A stretch of DNA of 64,000 bases. Origin: Vicingaceae bacterium (GTDB taxonomy: Bacteria; Bacteroidota; Bacteroidia; Flavobacteriales_E; Vicingaceae). The stretch is taken from contig JAOKVV010000005.1 in NCBI GenBank assembly GCA_028336925.1, positions 1-64,000 of the forward strand, read 5' to 3'. The translations under genes and the position numbers were made by a program. A model generated the notes under the pieces. The model did no database searches. It was not told the DNA's origin and saw only the letters and a list, made by a program, of their open reading frames with translations. Shown here one piece after another: positions 15,925-44,223 of the stretch; positions within the stretch are counted from its first letter, which is position 1; the number at the start of each line of letters is the position of its first letter.

Positions 15925-18900
15925 TTATGCTTGTACCTCTTCAATATTTCTAACCTTCACTTGGTAGTAAATATTAGGTTCAGTACCCACCTCTTCAATA
16001 ACTCTATATGATCTATCGCTATCTGCAACTTTTCTAACGATAGCATCACTATCATTTAAATCTCCAAATACAATAGCATCTGTAGGACAAGCAGAAGCAC
16101 ACGCCGTTTGAATTTCTCCATCACGTACTTTTCTACCATCTTTCTTAGCCTCAAGCTTTCCTTCTTGTATACGCTGAACACACATACTACACTTCTCCAT
16201 CACGCCTCTAGCTCTTACAGTAACGTCTGGATTTAATACCATACGTCCTAAATCGTCTTGAGAAGGATTAATCGCTGCGAAATCATCGTTGCCAATGTAG
16301 TTAAACCAATTGAATCTTCTAACTTTATAAGGACAGTTATTTGCACAATATCTAGTACCAATACATCTGTTATATGTCATTTGGTTCAACCCTTCGTTAC
16401 TGTGGGTAGTTGCAGCAACAGGACAAACTGTTTCACAAGGAGCGTGATTACAGTGCTGACACATCATTGGTTGGTGAACAACAGAAGGATTATCCTCTGC
16501 TATCTCCATTAAACCATAACTTCTGTCATTTTCTGACTTTTGCTCTTCCTCACTACTGAAATAACGATCAATTCTTAACCAATGCATTTCACGAGATTTT
16601 CTTACTTCATCCTTTCCAACAACAGGAACATTGTTTTCAGAATTACAAGAAGTAACACAAGCACCGCAACCAATACAAGAGTTCATATCAATCGTCATAC
16701 CCCAACGGTGACCAACATTCTCAACAGGGTGTTTATCCCATAATGAAGCATCTGTTGTTTTAATCTTCCCTTCTAGTGTAGTCAACATGTGAGGAGGATT
16801 AAATGCTTCCTGGTCTCCTGTTTTGTATACACCGAAAGTTGTTTCTCTAACTACAGAGTCACGACCCATAATAGTCTGGTGAGTCTGGGTAGTTGCTATT
16901 TGATAGTTCGATGCTGCTTTTTCAAAAGAAACATCTGAACTGTAATTGATCATTGATTTACCTGAAATAGCAATTGCAGGATAAGCATTAAAACCAACAA
17001 TCTGATCATCCTTTCCTAAAGTCCTACCATAACCAACAGCAACCCCTAAAGTACCTTTAGCTTGTCCTGGTTGAGAAACAACAGGTACTCCTTCCATAGA
17101 AACGCCATTAACGGTAATGTTCATCGTATTGGCATCCTTTTGCTCACCGTACTCAGCAGCATAACCTAGCTCTCGAGCATCAGAAGGATTCATTGTAATG
17201 TAGTTATCCCAGGTAATTTTTGAAATTGGATCAGGTAATTCTTGCAACCAAGGATTATGTGAATCATAACCAAATCCAATACCTACTTTTTGATAAAATT
17301 CTATTTCCCAATCAGCTGAAGCTTCTTTAGATATTGCAGATGCAGCTGATGATAGATCAGCATTAAAAACTGCCGGGGTAGTTACTTCAACAGAATGTTT
17401 GAAAACACCATCACTTAAAACAGCGTTCCAAAAATCAAAGAAATTAAGACTGTCTGTTTGGTTCGTATAAGCTTTCTCTTCCCATATTTTTTTCATGTAA
17501 GAGAAATAGTCACCTTCTAAATCCATCCAAACCATTAATGAATCCTGCATTTGACGTGTGTCAAATAACTTTGATATTACAGGTTGAGATACAGAATAGT
17601 GTCCTGAAACTGGATTGTGGTCGTTCCATGACTCTAAAAAGTGATTATCGGGTGTAACAAAATTACAAGCTGCTGAAGTAGCATTTGGTCGAGTAGCAAA
17701 AGATACTCTTGTATTCACTTTCGCTAAAGCCTCTCCAAAATTAGCTGACGCGGGCATAGAATATACAGGATCTACACCTGCAATAAAAATAGCATCTACC
17801 TTTCCAGCATTCATATCAGCTATTAGTTGTATCAGCTGCTCATCATCACCTTGTCTGTAATTAGACTGATAATCTATATTGATAGTCTTACCGTAATTTC
17901 CTAAAAGATTATTGATTGCATTTGTAAAAAGTTGTGCATTTGGATCATTAGATCCTGCTACAACTAGAGATGCTCCTTTAGCAGCAACTAAGGCGTCACC
18001 AGCCTTAGCAATAGCACCATCTGCAGATGTAGCAGAAGCAGAAACTTTATTTCCACCTACTTTAGATGCAACATAATTATATAATGACGCCAAAACCTTA
18101 CCATGCTCTGATGGTTTGATTGGTGTTCTGTGATCAGCATTCGTTCCGGTCATTGAGAACGTTGTCTCAAATTGAAAATGCTTAGACATCCAAGCATTCT
18201 CAGGCTTTCTATTAACAGCGTATTGTTTTGCGTATTCAACAGGAGAAATCCAGTTTCCTAAAAAGTCAGCTCCAACAGAAACGATTACTTTGGCATTATC
18301 AAAGTGATAAACAGGTAACGACTTTTTTCCAAAAGACATTTCGTTTGCTTTAAGCATGCCACTTAATGAAACTGCATCATAAGAAATATGCTCAATAGAA
18401 GCGCCAGGGTATTTTGCTTTAAAATCTTCAATTAAATATTTAGTAGATGGACTAGTAATTGAATTCGTTAAAATTCGAACGCTACCACCCTTTGCATCTA
18501 TCTTCTTTAAGTCAGCCTTGATTGTGCGGTCGATTGCAGACCAAGCATACTCTGATCCATCAACGGTAGGAGTTTTAATTCTCTTTCCATCATATAAAGA
18601 AAGTACAGATGAATTTATCCGAGCATTCACTCCGCCTCTAGATACTTCTGAAAGCTTATTTCCTTCAATTTTAATTGGACGCCCTTCTCTAGTTTTAACT
18701 AAAATACTAGCGTAATCGTTACCATCTGAGTAAGTAGATGCATACCAGTTAGCTACTCCAGGAGTAACTGTATCAGGCTTCACTACATAAGGAAGAGCGT
18801 AATTAACAGGAGTTTCACATGCAGCAAGAGATGCAGCTGTAACACCAAAACCTAAGTACTTTAAAAAATCTCTTCTACTAGTAGATGAACTTTCTAATGT

Positions 18901-19026
18901 TTCTTTATCTCCTAAAAACTGATCAGTCGGCAAATGCTCTTGAAACTCGTTATTTTTAGAAGTTGAAAAATCTGCTGAGTTGTTCAACTCTTCAGTTCCT
19001 TTCCAATACTTTTTAGTCTTATCCAT
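15925..19026 (-). CDS. actB: ACIII iron-sulfur/molybdopterin-like subunit ActB
   Basis: 1033 residues from ATG 19026; the track's TTG three codons earlier is less likely. The N-terminal twin-arginine motif SRRDFLKYLGFGVTAASLAAC ends in a lipobox-like LAAC, fitting the lipid-anchored ActB seen in this phylum. Next come a molybdopterin-oxidoreductase-like domain (expected to lack Mo) and a C-terminal ferredoxin-like part with cysteine clusters CIGCGACVTSC, CQHCNHAPCETVCP, CIGTRYCANNCP and CSMC...CASACP. These give the chain of four Fe-S clusters that leads electrons from quinol toward the haems of ActA. Family knowledge supplies the role; the motifs are visible. Confidence 0.95.
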   Translation of the reverse strand: MDKTKKYWKGTEELNNSADFSTSKNNEFQEHLPTDQFLGDKETLESSSTSRRDFLKYLGFGVTAASLAACETPVNYALPYVVKPDTVTPGVANWYASTYSDGNDYASILVKTREGRPIKIEGNKLSEVSRGGVNARINSSVLSLYDGKRIKTPTVDGSEYAWSAIDRTIKADLKKIDAKGGSVRILTNSITSPSTKYLIEDFKAKYPGASIEHISYDAVSLSGMLKANEMSFGKKSLPVYHFDNAKVIVSVGADFLGNWISPVEYAKQYAVNRKPENAWMSKHFQFETTFSMTGTNADHRTPIKPSEHGKVLASLYNYVASKVGGNKVSASATSADGAIAKAGDALVAAKGASLVVAGSNDPNAQLFTNAINNLLGNYGKTINIDYQSNYRQGDDEQLIQLIADMNAGKVDAIFIAGVDPVYSMPASANFGEALAKVNTRVSFATRPNATSAACNFVTPDNHFLESWNDHNPVSGHYSVSQPVISKLFDTRQMQDSLMVWMDLEGDYFSYMKKIWEEKAYTNQTDSLNFFDFWNAVLSDGVFKHSVEVTTPAVFNADLSSAASAISKEASADWEIEFYQKVGIGFGYDSHNPWLQELPDPISKITWDNYITMNPSDARELGYAAEYGEQKDANTMNITVNGVSMEGVPVVSQPGQAKGTLGVAVGYGRTLGKDDQIVGFNAYPAIAISGKSMINYSSDVSFEKAASNYQIATTQTHQTIMGRDSVVRETTFGVYKTGDQEAFNPPHMLTTLEGKIKTTDASLWDKHPVENVGHRWGMTIDMNSCIGCGACVTSCNSENNVPVVGKDEVRKSREMHWLRIDRYFSSEEEQKSENDRSYGLMEIAEDNPSVVHQPMMCQHCNHAPCETVCPVAATTHSNEGLNQMTYNRCIGTRYCANNCPYKVRRFNWFNYIGNDDFAAINPSQDDLGRMVLNPDVTVRARGVMEKCSMCVQRIQEGKLEAKKDGRKVRDGEIQTACASACPTDAIVFGDLNDSDAIVRKVADSDRSYRVIEEVGTEPNIYYQVKVRNIEEVQA

Positions 19027-19061
19027 AGATATCAATTGAAACTTTGTGGAATCTTAGTATT

Positions 19062-20324
19062 TTAATAGTGACACTTAGCGCATTCGATGCCGCCTAACTC
19101 ATCAACATTTATAACACCGTTTTCTAAATATTTTGCTTTAATGTCTGCAGGTAATCTTTTATGAATTTCATCATAATAGCCATTACCTTCAGTTTGTACT
19201 TTCGTTTCTCTGTGGCAATCAATGCACCACCCCATAGTAAGAGGAGCAAATTGCTTACCTACTGTGTACTCCTCAACTGGACCATGACATTTAGCACAGT
19301 CAATTTGTCCTACTGTTACGTGTTGTGAGTGATTGAAGTATACATGATCAGGCAAGTTGTGAACTTTAATCCATTTTATTGGAGAAGTATTATCGCCATA
19401 AGTTTTAGTTACAGGATCAAAATCTAATGCCTTGTAAATTTTAGCAATTTCTTCTTTTCCATATTGAGGACCTTCATTTATGTACGTATGACAATTCATA
19501 CACAAATTTGCAGAAGGTATACCTGCGGATTTACTATTTCTAGCACCGCTATGGCAATAATTACAATCAATTTTATTTTCACCTGCGTGCAATTGGTGCG
19601 AAAATTTAATTGGCTGCTCAGGCTCGTAACCCGTGTAAACACCTACATTCAGTGCAGTATCCCAACCTGCTTTCGCAATTAAAAGGATAATTCCTAGAAC
19701 AAATAAAACCACGAACTTTCTGTTACTAGCACCCCAAGCTACTAAAGCAGACCACATTCCTTTCTCCTCTTCAACATCTCCACCTTTTATGGCAGAATCT
19801 AACGAGTAGTTTACTTTTCTAAGAACTCCTATGACAATCAATAAAATAATAATGGCGCCAAAAAATATGTAGTAGGTGCTATTATCATCCACAGGCACTA
19901 CATCAGCTAAAACTGCAGTGTCTCCCGCAGCTCCTGCAGCAGGAACCGCTGCGGCTGCCGCAGCATTAGCTTCATCTACATATGCAAAAATTGCCTTTAT
20001 CTCTTCGTCATTTACAGGCTGATTAGGCATAATCACCTTATTAAACTTCTCATAGACAGCAATAGCCTGAGCGTCTCCAGATTTTATTAGCGCTTGAGAC
20101 CCTTTCACCCATTCTAAAATCCAAGACATTTCATACTTTTCAGTAACTCCTTTCATTCCGGGACCTACTAAAACATTATCACCAGTATAGTGGCAAGATG
20201 CACAGTATGATTTAAATAACTTCTCACCATCTTGAGCACTGGAGAGATTTGATGAAAAAACGAATAGTGCAAGGAATACTCCGTACAAATTCAATTTAAT
20301 CGACCTATGAGAAAATGCGTTCAT
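19062..20324 (-). CDS. actA: ACIII multihaem cytochrome c subunit ActA (six CxxCH sites)
   Basis: 420 residues from ATG 20324 (the track's TTG at 20351 gives an atypical signal). A signal peptide ends at SNLSSAQ. Then comes a monohaem cytochrome c domain (SYCASCHY) with an Ala-rich linker, a membrane helix near residues 155-175, a second hydrophobic segment, and a pentahaem domain with CNYCH, CMNCH, CAKCH, CIDCH and a final CAKCHY. The total is six haem motifs rather than the five of the basic ActA. It is the first gene of the operon, about 60 bases after a TAnnTTTG element. Confidence 0.94.
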   Translation of the reverse strand: MNAFSHRSIKLNLYGVFLALFVFSSNLSSAQDGEKLFKSYCASCHYTGDNVLVGPGMKGVTEKYEMSWILEWVKGSQALIKSGDAQAIAVYEKFNKVIMPNQPVNDEEIKAIFAYVDEANAAAAAAVPAAGAAGDTAVLADVVPVDDNSTYYIFFGAIIILLIVIGVLRKVNYSLDSAIKGGDVEEEKGMWSALVAWGASNRKFVVLFVLGIILLIAKAGWDTALNVGVYTGYEPEQPIKFSHQLHAGENKIDCNYCHSGARNSKSAGIPSANLCMNCHTYINEGPQYGKEEIAKIYKALDFDPVTKTYGDNTSPIKWIKVHNLPDHVYFNHSQHVTVGQIDCAKCHGPVEEYTVGKQFAPLTMGWCIDCHRETKVQTEGNGYYDEIHKRLPADIKAKYLENGVINVDELGGIECAKCHY

Positions 20325-20384
20325 ATTTAATGTATTACGTTTATGTCGCAACTAAATTCTATTTTTCGCTTTTATTACGAGACG

Positions 20385-20392: not shown

Positions 20393-20581
20393 AAAGAAAC
20401 ATCGTTTTTAGCTCACTATTTAAGGCAAAATAAACTTTCTAATCTCTAATTTATAATGATTCTAAATAAAGTAAAAAGCTTGCTAATTCTGTATTATTTA
20501 CTCTAAGGTTTCTTTTTGATTTTTTAAAAATTGACAAAAAATGTGGCACGAAAATTATTAATATTGTCAAAAAGTCTAACA

Positions 20582-21031
20582 ATGAAATTAATTATAACAC
20601 TCAATTTGATAATTATTCAAGCAATTGCATTTAGTCAAAACCAAACAACATTAAATGAAAAGCATGAAGACTTTAAACTTGAGATCATGGATACGATAAG
20701 CTCAGTAATGGACACTGGTAGAATCGAGATCCTTGAGAATAATACTATTGGTGTCCTGCTAGAAAAATTCAATTCGACAAAGAAAAATATAGGGTATAGA
20801 ATCCAAATCCATTCAGGACTTTCAAGAGCTGAAACATTAAAATCTCAAACTAACTTCATGAAACTCTATCCCAATATGAACACTTATGTTATCTATCAGC
20901 AGCCAAACTTTAAACTACGAGTTGGAGATTTTGAAGAAAGACTTTCTGTTAACAAATTCTATGAAGAAATGAAAGAGATATTTCCCGGTGCATTTATTAT
21001 AAAAGATAAGATAACACCAGTCCTTAATTAA
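20582..21031 (+). CDS. Secreted SPOR-domain-like protein
   Basis: 149 residues from ATG 20582 (MKLIITLNLIIIQAIAFSQ), a signal peptide; the track start at 20531 is a TTG that would bury the signal. The C-terminal ~75 residues (GYRIQIHSGLSRAETLKS ... PNFKLRVGDFEERL) look like a SPOR fold, which in the family binds denuded peptidoglycan glycan strands. The N-terminal half is polar and helical. The stop overlaps the PorE-like gene by 8 bases in a tail-to-tail layout. Periplasmic location and peptidoglycan binding are inferred. Confidence 0.75.
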   Translation: MKLIITLNLIIIQAIAFSQNQTTLNEKHEDFKLEIMDTISSVMDTGRIEILENNTIGVLLEKFNSTKKNIGYRIQIHSGLSRAETLKSQTNFMKLYPNMNTYVIYQQPNFKLRVGDFEERLSVNKFYEEMKEIFPGAFIIKDKITPVLN

Positions 21032-33934: not shown

Positions 33935-34682
33935 ATTTTACAATCGCTTCTACTATGGCTTCTTCAGTGTAGGGATTTGCAACCACTGCTACGTTGAATC
34001 CTTTTTCTTCAGCTACTTTTTGGGTAGAAGGTCCCACTACAGCAATTTTTGCCATGGGAACAGATAAATTATTGCGTTCAATTTGTTTTACAAAGTTAGT
34101 AACTGCAGAGCCACTAAAAAAGGTAATCCAGTCTAAGTCTTGACTTAATACTGCTTCCAACTCTTCTTTTGAATACGCTGGATCATAATTCACATACATG
34201 GGCATCGAAATTACCTCTTCACATTGGTCTTTCAATAGCTCTACGTATTCATTATTCGCTTTAGATGATTGTGGAATTAATATCCGCTCATGGCCAAAGA
34301 TAGGGAGTTGCTTTGCCAGCATTTTAGCCGTGTACTCTATTGGTACAAAATTACTTCGATACCCTATTTTCTCTACAGCTGCTTTTGTTTTTTCTCCTAC
34401 TGTAGCGATGCGCAGATCGGTTAAAAAATGCACCTTTACTTCATATTGCTCTAAAGCATCAAAGAAATAGTTTACGGCATTTACGCTTGTAAATACCACC
34501 CAATTAATCGATTCTAATTGCGTAACTATTGATTTTATTTGAATTTGATTTTTAATTGCACGTATGGCAATCATCGGCAGTGCAGTAGTTTCTGCACCTT
34601 TATAGCTGAGAAGTTTTTCTACTGACTTGCATTGATGTTCGGCTCTTGTAACCAGTACCTTTTTATTTCGAAGTGGATTCAA
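33918..34682 (-). CDS. hemD: Uroporphyrinogen-III synthase HemD
   Basis: 254 residues starting at a TTG that overlaps the end of the hemA-hemC ORF by 20 bases. Closes and flips ring D of hydroxymethylbilane. The family is divergent; supporting features are [17 protein letters not shown] at the N-terminus, [28 protein letters not shown] and [16 protein letters not shown], plus operon position between hemC and hemB. There is no in-frame ATG near the N-terminus, so the TTG is likely real. Confidence 0.92.
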
Positions 34683-36852
34683 GTATTGTTAGTTTAGTTT
34701 TCTCTTCAAGCTCCGCTTTGAGTTGAAGGGCTAAACTTTGAGCTATATTGATATAGTCTTTAGCAGCACCTTTCTTCTCTCCTATGCACACTAAGTTGCC
34801 ATCGTTTGAAGCAAATAATCCTTGAATCAAAAGTTCGTCATTTTTTACTTCTGCAAAAGCTGCGATGGGATAATTGCATCCACCGCCAAGTGCGATCAAA
34901 AATTCTCTCTCTGCGAAAGTTGCTATCTGAGTTGGTTTATGATTAAACTGCTTTACCAAATCCAATACAAACCCGCTCTCGTCTCTAACTTCTAAAGCTA
35001 AAGCTCCTTGAGCTACGGCAGGCAATAATTCTTCTGCAGTAAATATATCGTTTGCTTTATCAATCATTCCAAGGCGATTGATACCAGCATATGCTAAAAT
35101 GATGGCGTCGTAATCCCCTTCCATCATTTTCTTAATTCGGGTATCTAAGTTTCCCTGAATAAATTTCGTTTCTATGTCAGGGCGAAGTTTCTTCAACTGA
35201 ATTTGACGTCTTAAACTTCCTGTGCCAATGATGGCTCCTTCTTTTAAGTCAGCGAATTTTTCTCCCTTTTTAGAGATTAGAATATCTCGAACATCAGCTC
35301 TTTCTGAGATAGCAGCCAATTTTAAACCACTTATATTTTCAATTGGAAGATCTTTAAAACTGTGCACCGCCATATCTACGGTACCTGCAACAAGTGCACG
35401 TTGTATAGCGGATGTAAACGCTCCCATAACTTCAATATCGCCATCATCACCATTGGTGCGTATAACCTTAGTTACAAACTCATAATTAGGTTCATATTTC
35501 TTTAATTGCTCAATTACTTGATGTGTTTGTGTCAATGCTAATTTACTTCCTCTCGTCCCTACGATTACTCTTCGCTGTGGCACTTCAAGTTCTACATCTT
35601 CTAACCCAAATACTTTTTTTACGGTATGAATTGGATTATCTTGTTCATGCATATTATGTGATAACTCATGAATCACCTCCATCGGTCGTTTAGAAATTTT
35701 ACGCACCATACGGTGAGAGAACTTCTCTAATAACTCAACTTGAGCAGGAGTTAAATCGCCCATCTTTGGTAACAACCAACTTAACTCCTCTTCTTTAGTG
35801 CGCTGAAGTGAATGCCAATAGGCTTCCAGAACAGGTGATGCTTTCCTATTATAATACCAACTTGTAAACTTCTGCACCTCATCTTCTACTATCTCAGTTG
35901 CTTTTGGTATTTCATTATGGCGCTTCAGTAAACTCTCAAAGGTCATTTTTTTGATATCATCTAAATCGTATAACGACAATCCTTCCAAATTTTTCAGGCC
36001 TGAATTAAAATTTCTTGGTAAACCAAAATCAATTAACAGCTTAGGTTCTGATGCTTTAAATGCAAATTGGGCTCTTGTGCATTTACTATCCGTCAAAGAA
36101 GCCTCACTTAACAAATTAACTTCACCTTGAGTTCCTCCAATTATTATATCAACTTGACTAATATAACGGAATAGATTCTTTATCTCAATAGCTTCTCCAC
36201 CCCAATCATTGGCCATTTCGGTGGCTCGATCTAAGTTATGGCTTGCAATGTATAATTTTTTTATTTTAGTCCTATCTAATATGGTCGCTACCAAATTAGC
36301 CATACTTCCAGTTCCTACAACTAATAGGGAACTATCTTCTAATTTATACCCATGATTTTCAATCAACTCAAACCCCACAGTTGCTAATGATGCCGAATGA
36401 CGTCCTATATTAGTCTCCAATCGGGCTCTTTTTCCTGTATGTACAGCATGACGAATCATTTCATCAAGCATCGGCCCAATAGTTTTCTGTCTACGAGCCA
36501 ATGATAATGCTGAACGAATCTGACCTACAATTTGATGCTCTCCTATAGCTTGAGATTCTAAACCGGCCGCAGTTGAAAAAAGGTTTTTGATGGCAATCTC
36601 GGTATCCGGAAGTACAGTAAGGTACTGGGAGAAATTTCCGAAACTTTTGAGATAGTTTTCTAATCCATAATAATTTTCACCGAATGCGTAAAGTGACAAT
36701 CGGTTACAAGTAGCGATAATAAAAACCTCAGAGTATATCTGCTTTAAGTCAGATAGAGCTTGCATTGTTTGCTCATCATTTAATGCCATCTGCTCCCTAA
36801 TATCTATGGGTGCAAAACGATGACTCAACTCTACTCCTACTATTTTTTCCAT
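34663..36852 (-). CDS. hemA-hemC: Fused glutamyl-tRNA reductase / hydroxymethylbilane synthase (HemA-HemC)
   Basis: A single 729-residue ORF holding two complete enzymes. Residues 1 to ~415 are glutamyl-tRNA reductase: VGVELSHRFAPIDIRE, catalytic Cys49 in IIATCNRLSLY, GEHQIVGQIR, and the NADPH site GTGSMANLV near 180. After a linker of about ten residues, ~427-729 are hydroxymethylbilane synthase: VGTRGSKLALTQTHQV, AVHSFKDLPIE with the catalytic Asp, GTGSLRRQIQLKKLRPD, and the dipyrromethane-binding Cys659 in LGGGCNYPIAAF. The usual FxKELE lysine region reads FTSAIQRAL instead. The two are usually separate genes. It heads the haem operon. Confidence 0.93.
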   Translation of the reverse strand: MEKIVGVELSHRFAPIDIREQMALNDEQTMQALSDLKQIYSEVFIIATCNRLSLYAFGENYYGLENYLKSFGNFSQYLTVLPDTEIAIKNLFSTAAGLESQAIGEHQIVGQIRSALSLARRQKTIGPMLDEMIRHAVHTGKRARLETNIGRHSASLATVGFELIENHGYKLEDSSLLVVGTGSMANLVATILDRTKIKKLYIASHNLDRATEMANDWGGEAIEIKNLFRYISQVDIIIGGTQGEVNLLSEASLTDSKCTRAQFAFKASEPKLLIDFGLPRNFNSGLKNLEGLSLYDLDDIKKMTFESLLKRHNEIPKATEIVEDEVQKFTSWYYNRKASPVLEAYWHSLQRTKEEELSWLLPKMGDLTPAQVELLEKFSHRMVRKISKRPMEVIHELSHNMHEQDNPIHTVKKVFGLEDVELEVPQRRVIVGTRGSKLALTQTHQVIEQLKKYEPNYEFVTKVIRTNGDDGDIEVMGAFTSAIQRALVAGTVDMAVHSFKDLPIENISGLKLAAISERADVRDILISKKGEKFADLKEGAIIGTGSLRRQIQLKKLRPDIETKFIQGNLDTRIKKMMEGDYDAIILAYAGINRLGMIDKANDIFTAEELLPAVAQGALALEVRDESGFVLDLVKQFNHKPTQIATFAEREFLIALGGGCNYPIAAFAEVKNDELLIQGLFASNDGNLVCIGEKKGAAKDYINIAQSLALQLKAELEEKTKLTILESTSK

Positions 36853-40160: not shown

Positions 40161-40209
40161 ATTATTCTAATCATTGTGTAAAGGTTTCCCCAAAAAGCCT
40201 AATTTAGCT

Positions 40210-40228
40210 ATTTAGAATCAATCTAAAT
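40210..40228 (+). promoter_or_regulatory. Operator-like dyad before feoAB (candidate metal-regulator box)
   Basis: ATTTAGA-ATCAA-TCTAAAT is a perfect 7-bp dyad with a 5-bp spacer, ending two bases before the feoA ATG. The same half-sites recur at 43066. The position before ferrous iron uptake genes suggests an iron-responsive repressor of the DtxR or Fur type; that identity is inference. Confidence 0.6.
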
Positions 40229-40230
40229 AA

Positions 40231-40479
40231 ATGAGCCAAAAGATTCCTCTTTCAGAAGCAAAAAAAGGAGACCTAGTTACTATAGAATCTATTCACAATG
40301 AGTCACTTTCCGTACAACTTTTGTGCATGGGTTGCATGGTAGGTGAAGAAATATTGATAGAACAAATAGCTCCTCTAGGCGATCCTATGATGATAAGTAT
40401 TGATGGTGCATTGCTAAGTTTACGAATAGATGACGCCAAAGAAATCAATGTTTTAACTCAAAAAGAAAAACGTGGATAA
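40231..40479 (+). CDS. feoA: Ferrous iron transport accessory protein FeoA
   Basis: 82 residues, an SH3-like beta-barrel protein. Seen: LSEAKKGDLVTIESI, LCMGCMVGEEILIEQIAPLGDPM and the closing LSLRIDDAKEI, the standard FeoA layout. It is cytoplasmic and is thought to help or regulate FeoB. The stop overlaps the feoB GTG start by 8 bases (GTGGATAA). Confidence 0.95.
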   Translation: MSQKIPLSEAKKGDLVTIESIHNESLSVQLLCMGCMVGEEILIEQIAPLGDPMMISIDGALLSLRIDDAKEINVLTQKEKRG

Positions 40480-42439
40480 GGGTAAGCAATCAAAAGAAAT
40501 CATACAATTACTGTTAGTTGGGAATCCAAATTCAGGTAAATCAACCGTTTTTAATGAACTTACAGGACTTAATCAACAAGTTGGGAATTTTCCAGGTGTT
40601 ACAGTAGAAAAGAAAACAGGTAAGATTACATTAACCTCCACACTTAAGGCTCAGGTAATCGACTTACCTGGCACTTATAGCCTAAGCCCAAGATCAGAAG
40701 ACGAAAGGGTAACTTTTGATTACCTCAACAGTAATAAAACAGAAGGCAAAAGAGAAATTATCGTCGTCGTAGCAGATGCAAGTAACCTAAGAAGAAGTCT
40801 CCTCCTATGCTCCCAATTAATGGATCTAGAAAAATCTGTAATTCTTGGGTTAAACATGATGGATGTGGTAGAGCAAAATCAAGAATCGATTAACATCGAA
40901 AAGCTCTCAAAAGCATTAAATCTGCCTATTATTCCAATGAATGCTAGAATTGGGAAAGGAATAAAGGAGCTGAAGCAAGCCATTATTGATTTTAAAGAAG
41001 ATAAACGTGAGCCATTTATATCGCCAATAGATGGAGAAAAAGATGTAGATAATGCGTTAAGAAGAAATCAACGCATCAAAGAAATACTTAAAGAAACGGT
41101 AACTACCAAAGGCGACAAAAAAGCGAGTAAACTTACTCGAAAAATAGACCAAATTCTAACTCACCGAATTGGAGGATACTTTATATTCCTTTTCATCTTA
41201 TTTCTCATTTTTCAAGCTGTATTTTCTTGGTCGGAATACCCCATGACCATGATAGAGGAGGGATTTATTTACTTTGGAAATCTGGTTTCTGAAACATTCC
41301 CTGAAAGTGTATTAACCGATTTATTGGTAGATGGAATAATTGCAGGCCTAGGTGGTATAATTATATTCATCCCACAAATTGCTGCCCTATTTGCCTTTAT
41401 CGCCATTTTAGAAGACACGGGTTATCTATCTCGCATCAGTTTTATGATGGATGGATTGCTCAAAAAGTTTGGTTTAAATGGCCGTTCGATCATTCCTTTA
41501 TTAAGTGGCGCAGCTTGTGCTGTGCCTGCAATAATGAGTGCTAGAACTATCAGCAACAAAAAAGAAAGATTACTGACCATTTTTATCACTCCTTTAATCA
41601 GTTGCTCTGCCCGCATCCCTGTTTACACATTACTGATAGCACTTGTTATTCCATCGGAAGCTACCTTGGGGATTTTTAACCTACAAGGAGTAGTGATGAT
41701 GGCACTTTATCTTTTAGGTTTTATAGCCGCCATTGCTACATCGTGGGTAATGAAAACGTTTATCAAAACCAATGAGTCGAGTCATTTTATTATGGAAATG
41801 CCCATATACCGGGCGCCAAGATGGAAAAATGTGGGCTATACCATTGTCAATAAAGTAAAGGTATTCTTATTTGAAGCGGGTAAAATTATCATTGCTATTT
41901 CGATTATTCTTTGGGTCATGTCGTCTTACGGCCCAGGAGATTCATTTGAAAAGATCGATCAAAAATATGAGAAAGGCCTTTTAGAGCCCAACATCAATAA
42001 TGAAACAATGGCGGAGCAAATGTCTAGCGAAAAACTACAAGCAAGTTATGCCGGACGTTTAGGAAAGTTTATAGAGCCTGCTATTCGCCCTCTAGGATTT
42101 GATTGGAAGATCGGTATTTCTATCATTACTTCATTCGCAGCAAGAGAAGTTTTTGTAGGAACTATGGCTACTATTTATTCTGTGGGAGATGCAGACAATA
42201 CCACTTCGCTGAAAGAGAAAATGCAGAATGCCAGAGATCCAAGAACTGGTGAGAAAGTTTATACTAAGGCAACAGGGTATTCTTTGCTTATTTTCTATGC
42301 CTTTGCGCTGCAATGTATGGCTACTGTGGCAATAGTTGCAAAAGAGACCAATTCATGGAAATGGGCGATAATACAAGTAGTTTATATGGGAGGACTAGCT
42401 TATTTAGCCAGTTTCTTAACCTATCAATACTTTAGTTAA
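40472..42439 (+). CDS. feoB: Ferrous iron transporter FeoB
   Basis: 655 residues from a GTG. The N-terminal G domain has GNPNSGKST (G1), DLPGTYSL (G3) and LNMMDVV (G4-like). A helical spacer with a basic segment (about 190-225) follows, then a membrane domain with two Gate-like repeats: GAACAVPAIMSARTIS with SCSARIPVYTLL, and FAAREVFVGTMATIY. It moves Fe2+ across the inner membrane. The stop overlaps the next start (TAATG), coupling it to the SprT-like gene. Confidence 0.97.
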   Translation: MDKGKQSKEIIQLLLVGNPNSGKSTVFNELTGLNQQVGNFPGVTVEKKTGKITLTSTLKAQVIDLPGTYSLSPRSEDERVTFDYLNSNKTEGKREIIVVVADASNLRRSLLLCSQLMDLEKSVILGLNMMDVVEQNQESINIEKLSKALNLPIIPMNARIGKGIKELKQAIIDFKEDKREPFISPIDGEKDVDNALRRNQRIKEILKETVTTKGDKKASKLTRKIDQILTHRIGGYFIFLFILFLIFQAVFSWSEYPMTMIEEGFIYFGNLVSETFPESVLTDLLVDGIIAGLGGIIIFIPQIAALFAFIAILEDTGYLSRISFMMDGLLKKFGLNGRSIIPLLSGAACAVPAIMSARTISNKKERLLTIFITPLISCSARIPVYTLLIALVIPSEATLGIFNLQGVVMMALYLLGFIAAIATSWVMKTFIKTNESSHFIMEMPIYRAPRWKNVGYTIVNKVKVFLFEAGKIIIAISIILWVMSSYGPGDSFEKIDQKYEKGLLEPNINNETMAEQMSSEKLQASYAGRLGKFIEPAIRPLGFDWKIGISIITSFAAREVFVGTMATIYSVGDADNTTSLKEKMQNARDPRTGEKVYTKATGYSLLIFYAFALQCMATVAIVAKETNSWKWAIIQVVYMGGLAYLASFLTYQYFS

Positions 42440-43065
42440 TGGCAAAAAAGTCGGCCACTGAAGTTTTACTAAAGTATCTTCCTGAGGCATCAATCGCCCC
42501 ATGCATAGTCTGGATGAATGAGTTTAGACTACAACTAACTATCAAAAAATCACGTGCTACAAAATTAGGTGATTTCAGGCCTGTACATGATGGAAAACCT
42601 GCGAGAATTACAGTAAATGGTGACTTAAATAAATATGCCTTTCTAATCACCTTGGTGCATGAAATTGCACACGGAATTTGCTGGGATAAATACCAACGAA
42701 AAGTAGCTCCACACGGCAAAGAATGGAAAAGTATTTATAGCAACTACCTCTCTCAATTTATTGGAAAAGAAGTCTTCCCAAAAGAATTAGAACCAATTAT
42801 TGTACAGCACATTAATCGACCAAAGGCATCAAGCTGCAGCGATACGAGTCTGCTCAAAGCACTAAAAGCATACGATGATAATCCAGTGATTCATTTAGAG
42901 GAATTACCTGAAGATGCGATTTTTCAACTCTCGACAGGCCGAGTGTTTCAAAAGAAAGAATTAAAACGAAAACGTTATATCTGCATCGAATTATCGAGCA
43001 AGAAGCGATACCTAGTAAATGGCATAGCAGAAGTTATTCCAATGACAGAGATAGATAAACAATAG
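42439..43065 (+). CDS. SprT-like zinc metalloprotease domain protein
   Basis: 208 residues. An N-terminal SprT-like domain has the zinc-binding HExxH in TLVHEIAHGICW (about residues 74-78) and a likely third ligand in APHGKEWKSIY. The second half looks like the zinc-ribbon region of SprT but has lost most cysteines. No signal peptide, so cytoplasmic. It is translationally coupled to feoB by a one-base overlap, an unusual partner whose meaning is not known. The gene is unrelated to the gliding protein also called SprT. Confidence 0.8.
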   Translation: MAKKSATEVLLKYLPEASIAPCIVWMNEFRLQLTIKKSRATKLGDFRPVHDGKPARITVNGDLNKYAFLITLVHEIAHGICWDKYQRKVAPHGKEWKSIYSNYLSQFIGKEVFPKELEPIIVQHINRPKASSCSDTSLLKALKAYDDNPVIHLEELPEDAIFQLSTGRVFQKKELKRKRYICIELSSKKRYLVNGIAEVIPMTEIDKQ

Positions 43066-43084
43066 TTTTAGAATATATCTAAAT
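43066..43084 (+). promoter_or_regulatory. Second operator-like dyad, before the mannose-1-phosphate guanylyltransferase gene
   Basis: TTTTAGA-ATATA-TCTAAAT has the same TTTAGA-N5-TCTAAA arms as the site before feoA. It begins directly after the SprT-like stop codon and lies 57 bases before the next ATG. Confidence 0.5.
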
Positions 43085-43140
43085 CTCCTTTATGCAACGG
43101 CTAACATTTCGTAATTTAGGCCCCTTATTAGAAGAAAATA

Positions 43141-44223
43141 ATGAATAAAGACAACTACTGCGTAATTATGGCAGGCGGCATAGGAAGTCGTTTTTGGCCA
43201 ATGAGTCGCACATCATACCCCAAGCAATTTATCGACATTTTAGGAACAGGCAGAACATTGATCCAGCAAACCTACGATCGTCTTCAACGCATAGCACCAA
43301 AAGAAAATATATTTGTCGTAACCAACGAAGATTACCGAGAATTGGTTTTAGAACAATGCGAAGGAATGGATACCTCTCAGGTTTTATGTGAGCCAAGCAG
43401 AAGAAATACTGCTCCTTGTGTTGCTTATGCGAGTTATAAAATAAAATCGCTAAACGCAAACGCCAAAATTGTTGTAGCTCCAGCTGATCACTTAATTCTT
43501 AAAGAAGACAAGTTTATTGAAAGCATCAATACTGCCTTAGATTATGTATCTAAAAACAATGCATTGCTTACTTTAGCCATAGAACCAAGCCGTCCGGATA
43601 CAGGTTATGGATACATTCAATTTGATAGCTCTGAAAAAGATAGCAAGATCAAAAAGGTAAAAACTTTTACTGAAAAACCAAACGTTGAACTGGCCAAGCA
43701 ATTTGTTGAAAGTGGCGAGTTTAGTTGGAATTCAGGCATGTTTATTTGGACTGTAAATTCAATTATAGAAGCATTTAAAAATCACATGCCTGAACTTAAT
43801 GGTTATTTTGAAGATGGTTATAGTAAGTTAAAAACTGATCAAGAAGAGCAATTTATCAAGGATACCTATGCGGTTTGTAAAAGTATTTCTATCGATTATG
43901 GAATCATGGAAAAAGCGCCAAATGTGTATGTGATATCAGCAGACATTGGCTGGTCTGATTTGGGTACCTGGGGGTCTATTTATACGCACTTGCGCCACGA
44001 TGAAAACCTAAACGCTACGATTGGAAAAAATGTAATGCTATATGATAGTCATAATTGCATTGTAAGCATGCCGAAAGATAAGTTGGTGGTTTTACAAGGT
44101 TTGGATGGCTATATTGTAGTAGAATCAAATAATACCTTATTAGTTTGCAAAAAAGAAGACGAGCAAAAAATCAAGGAATTTGTAACTGATATTAAGATTG
44201 ATAAAGGCGAGAAGTTTGTTTAA
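43141..44223 (+). CDS. manC: Mannose-1-phosphate guanylyltransferase
   Basis: 360 residues. Makes GDP-mannose from GTP and mannose-1-phosphate for surface polysaccharides. Seen: pyrophosphorylase signature MAGGIGSRFWPMSRTSYPKQF at the N-terminus, CEPSRRNTAPCVAYA, APADHLILKED, FTEKPNVELAKQF and the IDYGIMEKAPNVYV segment. There is no phosphomannose isomerase domain, so this is the short, monofunctional form. A candidate operator lies upstream. Confidence 0.94.
   Translation: MNKDNYCVIMAGGIGSRFWPMSRTSYPKQFIDILGTGRTLIQQTYDRLQRIAPKENIFVVTNEDYRELVLEQCEGMDTSQVLCEPSRRNTAPCVAYASYKIKSLNANAKIVVAPADHLILKEDKFIESINTALDYVSKNNALLTLAIEPSRPDTGYGYIQFDSSEKDSKIKKVKTFTEKPNVELAKQFVESGEFSWNSGMFIWTVNSIIEAFKNHMPELNGYFEDGYSKLKTDQEEQFIKDTYAVCKSISIDYGIMEKAPNVYVISADIGWSDLGTWGSIYTHLRHDENLNATIGKNVMLYDSHNCIVSMPKDKLVVLQGLDGYIVVESNNTLLVCKKEDEQKIKEFVTDIKIDKGEKFV

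Follow-up and report, generated by a model that had tools for sequence, protein, structure and literature searches.

A candidate Fur operator before feoA in the Vicingaceae and a second, probably accidental or lineage-specific dyad before a guanylyltransferase gene

In a 64,000-nucleotide stretch of Vicingaceae DNA (hereafter the window), two inverted repeats with the same half-sites bracket feoA, feoB and a sprT-like gene, the second of them preceding a gene for mannose-1-phosphate guanylyltransferase. This arrangement raises the question of whether both repeats are operators of one metal-responsive regulator, which protein that would be, and whether GDP-mannose supply answers to the same signal as ferrous-iron import. 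The source assembly is a Vicingaceae (Flavobacteriales) MAG of 1.75 Mb, ~70% complete, whose closest named relative, as judged by FeoB, is another Vicingaceae MAG (91% identity).

The two dyads and the genes around them

The features of the locus are as follows.
40210..40228, no strand assigned: site 1, 19-bp Fur-box dyad ATTTAGAATCAATCTAAAT, predicted operator of feoA-feoB-sprT
40231..40479, plus strand: feoA, 82 aa (Pfam PF04023, E=3e-14)
40472..42439, plus strand: feoB, 655 aa (Pfam PF02421, PF07664, PF07670)
42439..43065, plus strand: sprT-like zinc metalloprotease gene (PF10263, E=1.3e-6)
43066..43084, no strand assigned: site 2, dyad TTTTAGAATATATCTAAAT, probably a chance match or specific to the lineage
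43141..44223, plus strand: mannose-1-phosphate guanylyltransferase gene (ManC/GMP), 360 aa (PF00483, PF22640)

The exact cores, TTTAGA-N5-TCTAAA, occupy positions 40211-40227 and 43067-43083, and the scan found no other exact copy in the 64 kb, in agreement with the initial annotation, which had described two sites sharing half-sites and a 5-bp spacer as the only full copies in the window. Coordinates and Pfam assignments likewise bear out its placement of the first dyad two bases before feoA (the ATG is at 40231, 2 bases past the end of site 1) and of the second between the SprT-like stop, which the start of site 2 adjoins, and the guanylyltransferase gene, with its ATG further on at 43141. 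Dinucleotide shuffles of the window gave an expectation of 0.06 exact copies, and none of 100 shuffles contained two. The whole assembly holds three exact copies, the third of which precedes the mrp-nifU Fe-S genes (L003 1500-1518, near 88220 in genome C45); this dyad before the mrp/ApbC-nifU pair is kept in both same-genus genomes. When one mismatch was allowed, 27 matches were obtained across the assembly against 21 for a reversed control pattern, and these matches are mostly background.

With regard to the genes themselves, the gene that follows feoB is sprT-like in each of the 30 family loci examined for synteny, and the guanylyltransferase scored under the cut-off of TIGR01479. Elsewhere in the window, a single reading frame of 729 aa (34663-36852) combines domains of glutamyl-tRNA reductase (HemA) and of porphobilinogen deaminase (HemC).

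The dyad before feoA and its recurrence in the family

Of 30 family FeoB loci, the window included, 28 have the dyad before feoA (27 exact copies and one with a single mismatch), and the other two lack it. Versions with one or two mismatches are present at a similar distance before feoB in many more distant Flavobacteriales. Scored with a position weight matrix (PWM), a profile made from the feoA sites of relatives, site 1 reached 25.8, within the family feoA range of 21.7-28.0. It also matches, 5-bp spacer included, the 19-bp consensus of the predicted Fur box of Riemerella anatipestifer, another member of the Flavobacteriales, ATTTAGAATTATTCTAAAT (PMC5609570).

The geometry of the promoter points in the same direction. 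A predicted -7 box precedes the dyad:
40200..40207, plus strand: predicted -7 promoter box TAATTTAG, a TAnnTTTG variant located 2 bp ahead of site 1

This variant, TAATTTAG, is the one used in the window's own genus, and in 22 of the 28 family sites a -7 box of the Bacteroidota type (TAnnTTT[GCA]) precedes the dyad core by 3-8 bp. Since the -7 box abuts the dyad, the predicted transcription start would fall inside site 1. A dyad over the transcription start is the classical location of a repressor. Conservation, promoter overlap and the Fur-box match thus support the earlier proposal that site 1 is an iron-responsive repressor operator at feoA, as far as can be judged from sequence. Under the mechanism that we propose, Fe(II)-loaded Fur dimers would bind ATTTAGA-N5-TCTAAAT in iron-sufficient cells, cover the predicted start that follows closely on the -7 box and so prevent feoA-feoB-sprT from being transcribed; under iron shortage the protein would dissociate and ferrous-iron import would be switched on.

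Both Fur binding and the iron response in the Vicingaceae organism are inferred by homology to Riemerella, where the half-sites, the 5-bp spacer, the position near the start codon and the feoAB target are the same, although the two belong to different families and Riemerella is the one in which Fur binding has been shown. Purified Fur of R. anatipestifer shifts promoter fragments with putative boxes, among them that of an sprT gene, the box of which matches poorly (PMC5609570), and deletion of fur in that organism raises expression of feoA and feoB, whose promoter contains a Fur box, 4-5 fold (PMC10434265). Fur control of feoAB through such a box has therefore already been published in the Flavobacteriales, and the core finding is an ordinary one.

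The genome-wide motif scan proposed with the initial annotation was run, and it showed that relatives repeatedly have the dyad in front of iron and Fe-S genes. Across 15 relatives, 82 dyads with 5-bp spacing were found against 30 for the reversed control, whereas the same half-sites at 6-bp spacing gave 26 against 23 in the same comparison. Among the 75 dyad matches listed with positions, 61 precede genes matched in more than one genome. The recurrent targets, identified by Pfam on representatives of each group, are feoA (13), a LuxR-type response regulator (13), sufA/iscA (12) and the multihaem cytochrome gene of a complex-III locus (12), together with smaller groups: a DUF4856 protein (4), TonB receptors (3), mrp (2) and one unnamed group (2). 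At the 13 LuxR-type loci (L142, L152, L184 and others) the response regulator gene starts right after the Fur-type dyad. In front of sufA, most relatives have the -7 box ~10 bp downstream of the dyad, which is thus placed between promoter elements; an iscA/sufA query against the window's ~70% complete assembly returned no match. These recurrences suggest that the dyad marks a family-wide iron regulon, probably under Fur control. The sufA, complex-III and LuxR-regulator targets proposed here for the Vicingaceae are not in the Riemerella box table (PMC5609570).

The complex-III group has a counterpart in the window, where a degenerate dyad lies between divergent genes:
15925..19035, minus strand: TAT-variant molybdopterin/Fe-S fusion gene
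19062..20351, minus strand: multihaem cytochrome gene
20449..20467, no strand assigned: degenerate Fur-box-like dyad ATTTATAATGATTCTAAAT, 1 mismatch, PWM score 18.8
20531..21031, plus strand: SPOR-domain gene

Together, the cytochrome gene and the molybdopterin/Fe-S fusion gene that follows it resemble alternative complex III. The score of this dyad is higher than the 16.8 of site 2, and the exact dyad is found in the orthologous divergent region at 12 loci of relatives. At the complex-III cytochrome gene, ~56 bp separate the dyad from the -7 box downstream of it. Such a location is commoner for an activator, but the dyad could instead act on the divergent SPOR-domain gene.

Fur or a DtxR-family regulator

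The initial annotation had left the regulator as a DtxR- or Fur-type protein. For the feoA dyad, sequence evidence resolves the question in favour of Fur: the Fur half of that proposal gains from the box match and from the presence of a fur gene in the genome, while the DtxR half loses ground to the 4-bp spacer found at mntR. The Fur homologue of the window's genome (C62:41825-42187, E=1.9e-27) has 158 aa, HDH and two CxxC motifs, and scores of 88.7 and 75.4 bits against the Fur and PerR models. Fur was present in all 22 genomes searched. A Fur-type box was looked for upstream of the fur gene itself, and none was seen.

If both dyads were instead DtxR/MntR operators, a DtxR-family protein would make the operon responsive to manganese or iron. 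The half-sites are indeed identical to those of the MntR-like dyads of the family, and a DtxR-family C-terminal domain occurs in 20 of the 22 genomes searched. However, the MntR-like gene of most relatives, which heads a metal ABC-transporter operon, is preceded by TTTAGR-N4-YCTAAA, while both sites in the window have a 5-bp spacer, which therefore favours Fur over DtxR. Furthermore, the regulator examined closely has MntR as its best family, and the DtxR C-terminal domain was not found in the window's assembly, only ~70% complete. We consider operation of the two dyads by a DtxR-family protein very unlikely.

The MntR (DtxR-family) operators of these same genomes thus resemble the Fur-type dyad in their TTTAGA half-sites and metal-transport targets, and differ from it in their 4-bp spacer and in serving the mntR-ABC operon and TonB receptors. 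The 4-bp-spacer dyad is enriched (40 against 17 for the control) and is also found before TonB receptors. In the window's genome, an MntR-type dyad of this kind precedes a TonB-dependent receptor gene (L284 1501-1516), an arrangement that recurs in several relatives. At another locus (L252 4725-6017), a metal ABC permease is fused to a DtxR-type C-terminal domain beside the MntR-like gene, and matches to this domain recur next to mntR in many family genomes. There is an apparent spacer code in these sequences, by which 5 bp would specify Fur and 4 bp MntR with half-sites in common. A broader proposal, in which Fur and MntR, unrelated regulators, read the same TTTAGA/TCTAAA half-sites and are kept apart by 5-bp versus 4-bp spacing, and in which Fur at that distance of ~56 bp from the -7 box directly activates, and does not repress, the iron-rich alternative complex III operon, is tentative and on balance rather doubtful.

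The iron control element of Irr in alpha-proteobacteria, TTTAGAA-N3-TTCTAAA, is a similar palindrome, and its recogniser also belongs to the Fur superfamily. No Irr-type regulator was found in this incomplete assembly: its only Fur-family protein found reaches 33.4 and 31.3 bits with the Irr models, whose cut-offs are 150 and 170, and thus fits them far less well than the Fur and PerR models.

The dyad before the guanylyltransferase gene

Site 2 had been suggested to tie GDP-mannose supply to the metal signal, a claim that its absence in 13 relatives, its low score and its unusual geometry leave unsupported. The half-sites are exact, but the PWM score is 9 bits under that of site 1 and below the family feoA minimum of 21.7. 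No dyad with two or fewer mismatches was found at this position in any of the 13 relatives in which sprT is followed by the guanylyltransferase gene, the best match having 3-5 mismatches, and even the sister genome, 91% identical and with its genes in the same order, lacks site 2. The guanylyltransferase gene seems to have a promoter of its own:
43112..43119, plus strand: predicted -7 box TAATTTAG of the guanylyltransferase gene, 28 bp downstream of site 2

The two same-genus relatives have an identical box before this gene, and others have TAnnTTTG-like boxes there.

If site 2 worked as a Fur site, this lineage would couple the supply of GDP-mannose to iron. That alternative draws on the presence of an exact intergenic dyad near a true Fur box when 0.06 copies are expected per 64 kb; by position alone, at the control rate, the chance that an exact dyad falls within 3 kb of the real one is ~0.2%. 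Nevertheless, the control rate of 30 in ~45 Mb predicts ~1.2 accidental exact copies in an assembly of 1.75 Mb, and both the 3-5 mismatches in the relatives that share this gene order, sister included, and the weaker score speak against a functional site, as does the gap of ~28 bp to the -7 box, a geometry without parallel in the conserved target groups examined (feoA, LuxR, sufA, mrp and complex-III). We regard a working site 2 as unlikely. An inverted repeat right behind the sprT stop could also be a terminator hairpin of the feo operon and not a protein site, but the stem is A/T-rich and its predicted fold is no more stable than expected (z-score 0.25; of 200 shuffles, 118 were equally or more stable). 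Folding led us to reject a terminator, which is highly improbable.

Most likely, site 2 arose by chance or is private to the lineage, and it lies upstream of the guanylyltransferase gene's own promoter, a recent lineage-specific gain being possible. Read-through could still link the guanylyltransferase gene weakly to the feo operon, as it is co-directional with sprT. For the locus as a whole, we think it very probable that site 1 is a Fur operator and that site 2, whether accidental or private to the lineage, lies outside the iron regulon of the family.

In the searchable literature, to which most subscription papers do not belong, we found no description of a Fur-type dyad before alternative complex III or a LuxR-type regulator, nor of Fur and MntR boxes that have half-sites in common and spacers one base apart in length; given that coverage, absence is weak evidence of novelty. 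The analysis removes a misleading link between sugar and metal and gives a little-studied family of Flavobacteriales a concrete, testable Fur regulon, while the apparent contrast in spacer between Fur and MntR may offer a compact model for keeping iron and manganese signals apart.
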